DNA from: Leptospiraceae bacterium
GTDB lineage: Bacteria > Spirochaetota > Leptospiria > Turneriellales > Turneriellaceae
Direction of reading: 5' to 3'
DNA: 10,822 nt
Assembly: GCA_016788945.1 (NCBI GenBank)
Contig: JAEUSA010000009.1
Location: 1-10,822 of the forward strand
A program made the position numbers and the translations under genes. Every line of letters starts with the position of its first letter. Position 1 is the first letter of the stretch. Below the pieces are notes generated by a model, which searched no databases, was not told the DNA's origin, and saw only the letters and a program-made list of their open reading frames with translations. Below, piece by piece: positions 1,116 through 2,602 of this stretch.

Positions 1116-1469
1116 ATGGCAGCGCAATACTACGACATACAAGACTCCCGGCGCATCTTCGGCAGCGAAGTGGAGCTCATGAAGTTCCTGAAATCACTGC
1201 TGATCAAAGACTACAAAATTTACGAAATGCAGAATGAGCAGGGTACGCTGGTGCCCTACCATGCACACGCATTCAGTGAAACCATTCTTGTGTTAGAGGG
1301 TGTAATCCGCCTGATAATCGAAGAAGACATTGTTGACGTTTACCCCGGACAGCTCGTCACCATACAACCATTCGCGATTCACCTTGCCGCCTTCCCGAAC
1401 GAGGGGGGTGCGCGTTTTTACCTGCTCTATTCAGAGCGCGGCAAAAATAATCTGTTCACAGAAAAATAG
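1116..1469 (+). CDS. small single-domain cupin protein
   Basis: A 117-residue cytoplasmic protein with one cupin beta-barrel. Cupin motif 1 is complete: HxH (His49, His51), Glu55 and a glycine six residues later (Gly62). Motif 2 follows as PGQ (Gly78), Pro85 and His89. The three histidines and Glu55 are the usual metal-binding set, so a bound divalent metal is likely. Small cupins of this kind may be dioxygenases, isomerases or ligand-binding proteins, and nothing here fixes the substrate. The gene starts 18 bases after nuoB on the same strand and may share its transcript, but I know of no link between cupins and complex I. No good ribosome binding site precedes the ATG at 1116. An internal ATG at 1179 (TGGAG at 1171-1175) would remove the first 21 residues and still keep the barrel. 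Confidence 0.85.
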   Translation: MAAQYYDIQDSRRIFGSEVELMKFLKSLLIKDYKIYEMQNEQGTLVPYHAHAFSETILVLEGVIRLIIEEDIVDVYPGQLVTIQPFAIHLAAFPNEGGARFYLLYSERGKNNLFTEK

Positions 1470-1540
1470 AAATTTCACAACGACGCTGCGCAGGTCTCAA
1501 AAGGTTTATTAGATCGGGAAAATGCCGGCCAATTTCCGTT
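1470..1540. other. gene-free start of the convergent gap
   Basis: This stretch lies between the cupin stop and the nested repeat. It holds one imperfect hairpin at 1517-1537 (GGAAA pairing with TTTCC around a GCCGGC core). No T-run follows on either strand, so it is not a standard intrinsic terminator. Otherwise I see nothing in it. Confidence 0.35.
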
Positions 1541-1694
1541 GGGTTTGTCTAAAAAGTCGCCCAGCAAGTGAAAACGCTGCATTTGCCTTTAGGCAAATGC
1601 ACGCAAAACGCTACGGTGTTTCCCGGAAACCCCTCCGCTGTTTTCACCTGCTGTCCGCGCCCGTTGCGCGGTTCGCAACTATTTAGACAACCCC
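1541..1694. repeat. nested inverted-repeat element between convergent genes
   Basis: The outer arms are 1541-1560 and 1675-1694, which match in inverted orientation at 17 of 20 positions. A second pair of arms is 1562-1575 and 1640-1653 (13 of 14). Between the inner arms sit a perfect 10-bp stem with a TTTA loop (1578-1587/1592-1601) and a smaller stem (1615-1622/1626-1633, one mismatch, loop CCG). Between B' and A' is a further 6-bp stem (1663-1668/1674-1679). The right outer arm covers the last five codons and stop of the convergent TPR gene. The whole could fold as a branched RNA from either strand, or be a palindromic mobile element. None of the stems is followed by a T-run, so a role as an ordinary terminator is not obvious. 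Confidence 0.75.
1578..1601. repeat. perfect 10-bp hairpin with TTTA loop
   Basis: The arms are TGCATTTGCC and GGCAAATGCA, fully complementary, with a four-base loop. It is the most stable single stem of the nested element and is symmetric for both strands. It could act in transcript stability or as a weak bidirectional end for the convergent genes, but it lacks the following U-tract. Confidence 0.8.
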
Positions 1695-2602
1695 TCGATC
1701 ATCTTCATTTCTTTGTTCGTCGCACGAAAGGGTTTTTCAACGGCTTGTGGCGCCGCGGTACGCAAGTTGGCGAGCAACCGCTGCGCTTCTGAATCTTCAC
1801 CATTCTGCGCTATGATTTCTTCAAGGAGAACACGCGCATCATAAAACCGGCGCTCGGCCATACGCACTTCAATCAGCGGCCAGATATAACGCGTATTGCG
1901 ACCGAATATGTGGTAGAGTTCTTCAGCGCAGTCGGCTGTCAGTTTTGGGTTCTTCTGCAACGCCGCCAGACGGTATCGCAGCAGGTAGAACTGTTCGCGC
2001 TCGGGTTTATTGTTGCGCAGCGCGGTCGCGCAAGTAAATGCTTCACGCCATTGGCGGCGGCGTTCATGCCTTTCGCAGTCTTCGGGTTTGACATTGGCCG
2101 GCGCCGGCTCGAGCGATTCGAGCAGTTCTGTCGCCTTATCCCGTTTTTTGAGCCTGCCCAACAGCCGCGCGTGCAGAATATGCGTTTCGATATCAACGCG
2201 GTCGAGTGTGAGGTATTGATTAAAATATTGCAAGGCTTTGTTGTCGCTGCGGCGCGCGTAAAAGTAGCGCGCGAGAAAGGCGATCGCCTTCTTATCGCTG
2301 TATCCGTGCGTGATGGCGCGTTCATACATGTTCGCCGCTTCATCGTTGCGCCCTAACTGCACAAGACATTCTGCTGCGAGAATTTCTGCGTCAAGCTTCG
2401 GCGGATACGTGCGCGCATCGCGATCTTCATTCATCTGCAGCGACACGCGCAGCGATTCGAGTGCGTTTAAGAAACGCCGGCGCTCAAAATGTTCGCGTCC
2501 GCGTTCGAGAAAATCGATATCGGTTATGGCCTGGGCAGCGAGCGCCGCCGGCCAGATGACCAGTAGCAACAAATGTCGCGACAGCGACATTTGTTGCAGC
2601 AT
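1679..2602 (-). CDS. secreted TPR protein
   Basis: A 307-residue protein with an N-terminal signal peptide: a short polar start, a hydrophobic stretch at residues 9-22 and an Ala-rich end around LAAQA. Signal peptidase I cleavage near residue 24 or 25 is likely, giving a periplasmic protein. The mature part is almost all helical TPR-like units: about residues 31-58, 72-101, 105-134, 139-165, 205-235 and 253-283. TPR arrays bind other proteins; no catalytic domain is visible. The ATG overlaps the TGA of the upstream TPR-barrel gene (TGATG), so translation is probably coupled and the two products may act together at the outer membrane. A 14-bp hairpin begins two bases after the start codon. An ATG at codon 5 lies inside that stem and is less likely. 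The gene's 3' end forms one arm of the nested repeat at 1541-1694. Confidence 0.8.
   Translation of the reverse strand: MLQQMSLSRHLLLLVIWPAALAAQAITDIDFLERGREHFERRRFLNALESLRVSLQMNEDRDARTYPPKLDAEILAAECLVQLGRNDEAANMYERAITHGYSDKKAIAFLARYFYARRSDNKALQYFNQYLTLDRVDIETHILHARLLGRLKKRDKATELLESLEPAPANVKPEDCERHERRRQWREAFTCATALRNNKPEREQFYLLRYRLAALQKNPKLTADCAEELYHIFGRNTRYIWPLIEVRMAERRFYDARVLLEEIIAQNGEDSEAQRLLANLRTAAPQAVEKPFRATNKEMKMIEGLSK
2566..2597 (-). repeat. perfect 14-bp hairpin at the start of the secreted TPR gene
   Basis: The arms 2566-2579 and 2584-2597 are perfect inverted repeats of 14 bp, separated by a four-base loop. On the mRNA the stem starts two bases after the ATG at 2602-2600 and covers codons 2 to 13 of the signal peptide. 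It could limit new initiation so that the gene is read mainly by ribosomes finishing the upstream gene, or it could be a processing site. Confidence 0.85.

Follow-up and report, generated by a model that had tools for sequence, protein, structure and literature searches.

The 154-bp palindromic element at positions 1541 to 1694 of the window (the whole stretch of 10,822 nucleotides analyzed here) is probably a copy from a MITE-like family of non-autonomous DNA transposons. In the mechanism that we propose, the terminal inverted repeats of the element would once have been the substrate of a DDE transposase of the IS5/IS1182 kind, which mobilized it. It would then have landed at the meeting point of the convergent ends of a cupin gene and a TPR gene, and the last codon and the stop of the TPR gene would be new ones that came with it. 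Inside the arms is a folded core that is conserved, and the pairing of both arms and core would be maintained at the DNA level. The uncommon feature of the family is that this core is conserved inside exchangeable ends, which the plain MITE model does not predict and which counts against that model in its simplest form. The original prediction, which had been made from the window alone and had named an inverted duplication, a palindromic mobile element, and a structured RNA as candidates, was as a whole partly supported.

All of the predicted inverted-repeat architecture was found. The outer arms, or terminal inverted repeats, lie at 1541 to 1560 (GGGTTTGTCTAAAAAGTCGC) and 1675 to 1694 and matched each other at 17 of 20 positions by arm comparison. 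Inside them, a core stem is formed by 1562 to 1575 and 1640 to 1653 (13 of 14 pairs, also recovered by folding), and it bears a perfect 10-bp hairpin, H1 (1578 to 1601), the linker CGCAAAACG (1602 to 1610, plus strand), and a second hairpin region, H2, with approximate limits of 1611 to 1639 taken from folds and alignment A1. A further hairpin in the fold, H3 (CCGCGC-CCGTT-GCGCGG; 1655 to 1671), follows the core stem, and the outer stem closes the whole into a cloverleaf. In its long form the element, on the plus strand in the orientation of our covariance models R1 and R2, scored 113.1 bits with R1, which was built in part from the window copy itself, and 104.6 bits with R2, over model positions 1 to 140. 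The 160-nt stretch from 1538 to 1697 had a fold energy of -73.2 kcal/mol on the plus strand and -82.9 kcal/mol on the minus strand (z = -9.15 and -9.27; 0 of 200 shuffles reached it on either strand), so that the folding of both strands gave a z score of about -9 each. We give next to no probability to a chance palindrome or a local inverted duplication as the source of this structure, considering the fold and the family-wide occurrence of copies with the same architecture; the dispersed copies refute both, and the arms that had suggested a local duplication are terminal repeats common to those copies. The GC content of the element is 54%, so the AT-richness that is typical of, although not required for, a MITE is absent. 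There is no transposase gene in the element, and the only listed open reading frame (ORF) that starts inside it is a 74-amino-acid plus-strand frame that enters the TPR gene.

The neighborhood consists of NADH dehydrogenase genes, a cupin-domain gene on the plus strand (1116 to 1469; Cupin_2, 29.5 bits, cutoff 27.2), and, convergent with it, a TPR protein gene on the minus strand (1679 to 2602; TPR_19, 40.6 bits, cutoff 25) with the element at its 3' end. As had been noticed beforehand, the right outer arm ends the TPR gene: on the minus strand, 1679 to 1693 reads GGG TTG TCT AAA TAG and encodes the last five codons of the gene (G-L-S-K-stop). We read the same gene junction in six relatives. 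In five of them the element was absent, and the distance between the cupin and TPR stops was -12 bp (G005), 5 bp (G004), -9 bp (G002), 34 bp (G003), or -4 bp (G006), compared with 209 bp in the window; the sixth, G001, has other sequence after the cupin gene and was uninformative. Because five relatives have the junction and no element, the window copy is an insertion. The five readable relatives also lack a further stretch of some 70 bp that leads from the cupin stop to the element (window 1470 to 1540).

The outcome set against the original prediction, a unique sequence whose arms are not conserved, did not arise: searches of this genome and its relatives uncovered a dispersed family. Within the genome of the window, BLAST with the element returned 24 places at an E value of ≤10, one of them the element itself; besides it, the clear matches were C33 (72% identity over query positions 16 to 164; E value, 2.2e-12) and C269 (80% over 15 to 80; 2.1e-9). 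At an E value of ≤0.01, 7 of 41 genomes were matched, namely, six of the seven Turneriella genomes (the window's own among them and G003 not) and, weakly, G016. Model R1, built from 18 long copies, matched 10 of 21 genomes. Model R2 drew on 36 copies from several subfamilies; applied at an E value of ≤1e-4 to 48 genomes of the class, it matched all seven Turneriella genomes, with at least 41 matches in Turneriella parva (G004), 22 in the window's own genome, 14 in G003 (the best at only 8.8e-7), 13 in G005, 12 in G006, and 6 each in G001 and G002. Outside Turneriella there were at least seven matches in G040, which belongs to another family, and at least one in G016, and the other 39 genomes of the class did not appear among the matches listed. 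Across the phylum, at least 8 of 296 genomes matched at an E value of ≤1e-5, the remaining 288 being without a match among those listed.

Copies were mostly 115 to 190 bp long, and shorter forms were also present; some of these, L231 (78 bp) and L232 (44 bp) among them, seem to have arisen by internal deletion. No copies were found in plasmids with two queries, in phages with the L036 element as the only query, in Escherichia coli with the G040 element as the only query, or in viral contigs with one exact core pattern. The element was likewise unmatched in Rfam, both for the window and 20 loci at gathering thresholds and for 6 loci at an E value of ≤10. The only Rfam match at L036 was the RNase P RNA gene of T. 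parva beside the copy (L036:999-1569), and the copy starts 3 nt beyond the predicted end of that gene. We saw no description of the family in the literature searched, which covered few subscription papers.

To the insertion at the window site the family adds an excess of target duplications. After three same-site copies had been removed, a perfect 4-bp direct repeat was present at the boundary of 4 of 55 copies (shuffled mean, 0.34; P = 0.0002), and at least three of four letters were repeated in 11 of 55 (mean, 3.3; P = 0.0006). Of the 25 offsets compared, the boundary ranked first; its neighbor (1,-1) had counts of 3 and 10. A perfect duplication is missing in 51 of the 55 copies, and the flanks of the window copy have no clear one; the movement of this particular copy would lie in the past. 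Dispersal, insertion relative to five relatives, and target duplications support the predicted palindromic mobile element, as do insertion sequences that share their ends with two other groups of copies.

The first of these, in G006, is a 1,292-bp insertion sequence with the ends CAGGATGTTGAAAA and CAGGCTGTTGAAAAA and with TTAG on each side. It encodes DUF772 and DDE_Tnp_1 domains and matched IS5_4 at 188.4 bits, over the cutoff, with IS1182 below its own cutoff. Two copies in the same genome (L219 and L221) have CAGGCTGTTGAAAAA and CAGGGTGTTGAAAAA as ends around the core. The second, in G040, is 1,664 bp long and carries an IS1182 transposase (299.7 bits; cutoff, 270), and its ends, AGTCTGTTGAAAAAGCC, are the left end of four of the seven G040 copies (L267, L270, L271, and L272); the other three differ. 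Insertion sequences of the IS1182/IS5 kind and the element family are therefore alike in that CAGGCTGTTGAAAAA in G006 and AGTCTGTTGAAAAAGCC in G040 end both, but the insertion sequences carry a transposase, and a scan of four IS1182-type loci (L121, L122, L123, and L126) with R1 did not detect the core. A further insertion sequence in G040 (L295:1781-3510) has the ends GCCTGTCGAAAAACCCG, and the left end of copy L268, AGGCTGTCGGAAAACCCGC, is similar. For the subfamily of the window, a search for IS1182 or DUF772 gave no match in G000 to G005 and so no partner with the window's ends; in the fetched loci, where these ends occur as inverted pairs separated by up to 3.2 kb, no pair was seen enclosing a transposase, and no transposase was recognized by eye among the ORFs of 12 loci with the window's end motif from Turneriella and G014 to G017. 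Since this subfamily is without a found partner, its copies may be stranded.

The ends of the window's subfamily, GGGGNNGTCTAAAAAGTC, also flank unrelated interiors in G014 and G016, which belong to another family of the order, as expected of transposon or MITE ends. Elsewhere, in other subfamilies and in G040, one and the same core (stem, ACGC, H1, ACGCAAAACG, H2, TGTTT, stem) lies within wholly different but still paired outer arms. A strict linker motif was found in 40 of 70 long copies, compared with 68 of 3,500 dinucleotide shuffles and 0 of 70 on the reverse strand, and was missing from the other 30; a looser motif was found in 50 of 70, compared with 368 of 3,500. This excess over shuffles indicates that the likeness of the cores is not accounted for by shared structure alone. 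A more tentative reading, which we regard as rather doubtful, is that the unit passed on is not the terminal repeats but the folded core: a small structured cassette whose transposon ends would have been swapped several times, each swap matching a different local IS5/IS1182 transposase, so that it outlived these transposases and reached distant families of the class. If the shape of such a core were what is recognized, the pair-by-pair rewriting of the arms would be explained.

In G016, a MITE family that appears young combines ends of the window's type with the interior CACCGCAAAGGCGCGAAGG (L035, L039, L101, L109, L117, L132, L138, L139, L143, and L147), and the genome has 57 end-motif hits at up to one mismatch. 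In the window's own genome, five loci (L206, L209, L210, L211, and L212) form a near-identical 170-bp subfamily, with the ends GGGGCTGCGCGGCAGG where complete; L206 is flanked by ATCT on each side, and this subfamily is perhaps the most recently active set in the genome. One G040 copy (L270:2001-2161) has an extra hairpin next to H1 and is otherwise like its sisters L267 and L272.

Set beside known systems, the family resembles the bacterial MITEs, which one survey describes as shorter than 500 bp, with terminal inverted repeats, no transposase gene, and typically AT-rich sequence (PMC10969869). Size, terminal repeats, direct repeats in some copies, intergenic position, and a very stable fold are shared with those elements, but the present family is not AT-rich and its interior is conserved across wholly different subfamily ends (PMC10969869). 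The ERIC/RU-1, Correia/NEMIS, and RUP repeats, as far as the part of the source consulted describes them, are likewise dispersed, intergenic, 100 to 200 bp long, and associated with long paired transcripts and target duplications, but occur in other hosts and mostly end in TA (PMC2229807). Ends here are GGGG..., CAGG..., or AGTC..., and the family is without an Rfam match. Recognition of MITEs usually relies on their ends, and the interior may vary without constraint. Here a structured interior has been kept within ends that differ wholly between subfamilies, which suggests that a non-autonomous element could persist after its transposase is gone by exchanging its ends.

The structure is conserved with paired changes. 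In alignment A3, which holds 36 copies aligned to the R1 structure and is thereby biased towards it, 41 of 47 pairs had a two-sided change in one copy or more; there were 395 two-sided cells against a shuffled mean of 107.2 (reached by 0 of 500 shuffles) and at most 91 when partners were slid. Alignment A1 (18 copies; MAFFT), from which its structure was itself derived, gave two-sided changes in 25 of 47 pairs and 98 cells against 29.1. It is important to note that the copies in both alignments are related and that these counts are not of independent events. Mismatches were G-U in 54 cases and A-C in 42 for the best 31 rows, and 101 and 88 for all 64, and this near equality gives no clear sign of selection on one RNA strand. 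Template-switch repair of near-palindromes would also yield paired changes, and we therefore do not claim selection. The lack of strand bias among the mismatches favors a DNA palindrome over an RNA, and the pairing would be kept at the DNA level, either because a hairpin is needed or because template-switch repair matches the near-palindromes. With its pairing so well kept, the family provides a natural setting in which to distinguish selection from repair that matches palindromes.

A comparison of the flanks of 75 copies found few sites in common: there were two-sided matches for four groups, one of which, L041 and L264, did not align as DNA. The gap between fliG and fliH (genes identified by Pfam) holds a copy in three species (L191, L207, and L216). 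A comparison of L191 with L207 shows nine pairs in which both partners differ and pairing is retained, one pair broken by a two-sided change, and one broken by a one-sided change; between L191 and L216, three pairs differ on both sides yet remain paired and three have one-sided breaks. L031 (G002) and L050 (G004) occupy one site; L050 has no core at all, and a deletion between CCGC repeats apparently removed it. At L215 and L262, a copy from another subfamily occupies the site in G002, and next to it is an apparent remnant of the right arm of the G004 type.

These observations bear on the structured RNA that had been proposed as one candidate, a 3'-UTR element or small RNA in which selection would act on the RNA fold and copies would have spread secondarily. 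The check named beforehand for such an RNA, paired changes among copies, came out strongly positive in A3 and A1, and the copy that three species retain between fliG and fliH, with its nine and three paired double changes, points the same way; this check does not separate RNA from DNA structure. The almost symmetric mismatches between the strands go against a single RNA strand, the orientation of copies relative to tandem genes is mixed (the same in 11 of 26), the element is unmatched in Rfam, the window site is empty in five relatives, and pairs are also lost, as in the three one-sided breaks between L191 and L216. We consider an RNA origin unlikely.

The placement of copies was examined in 59 with usable neighbors (75 less four same-site copies, giving 71, of which 12 were skipped), with neighboring genes taken from crude ORF-based calls. 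Copies lay a median of 9.5 nt from the 3' ends of genes facing them (n = 58), 15 of which they overlapped, and 63 nt from facing 5' ends (n = 60; P = 1.6e-5); 26 were between tandem, 17 between divergent, and 16 between convergent genes. An arm that reaches into a gene end, as in the window, is thus common across the family, and by overlapping gene 3' ends the family can donate stop codons. The same placement is consistent with a two-way transcription terminator for convergent genes, with mobility incidental. The common subfamily has the ends AAAAAGTCGC...GCGACTTTTT, copies sit against gene 3' ends, one of them close behind the RNase P RNA gene of T. parva, and by an uncontrolled, home-made heuristic a stem followed by a T-run was found on at least one strand of 53 of 65 long copies and on both strands of 32. 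That heuristic, which had no control, gave nothing for L216, however, and a standard scan of window positions 1400 to 1800 gave two terminator-like sites (0.7 expected), neither within the element proper. Further, the T-run falls inside the outer stem, some subfamilies have none, and 17 of the 59 copies lie between divergent genes by the crude calls. A terminator role of copies is plausible from these predictions; that termination is what the family is, with transposition secondary, we judge quite improbable.

The transposon reading was also weighed against a REP/REPIN-type repeat mobilized by a RAYT (Y1 transposase). Palindromic intergenic repeats characterize both kinds, and Y1 transposase genes were present in five of the seven Turneriella genomes, but most of the 10 Y1 loci bear other palindromes (for instance, TCGTTGCCACGGGTTTAAAC), and at an E value of ≤1 R1 gave only a 44-bp palindrome of the window's end type (L252) and a 15.6-bit match (L250). 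With the long-form element at 0 of the 10 Y1 loci, we rejected the link, which we hold to be very improbable. The palindromes beside the Y1 genes in G000, G001, G004, and G006 (L247, L248, L249, and L251 to L255) are near perfect and are REP-like repeats of Turneriella, unrelated to the window element.
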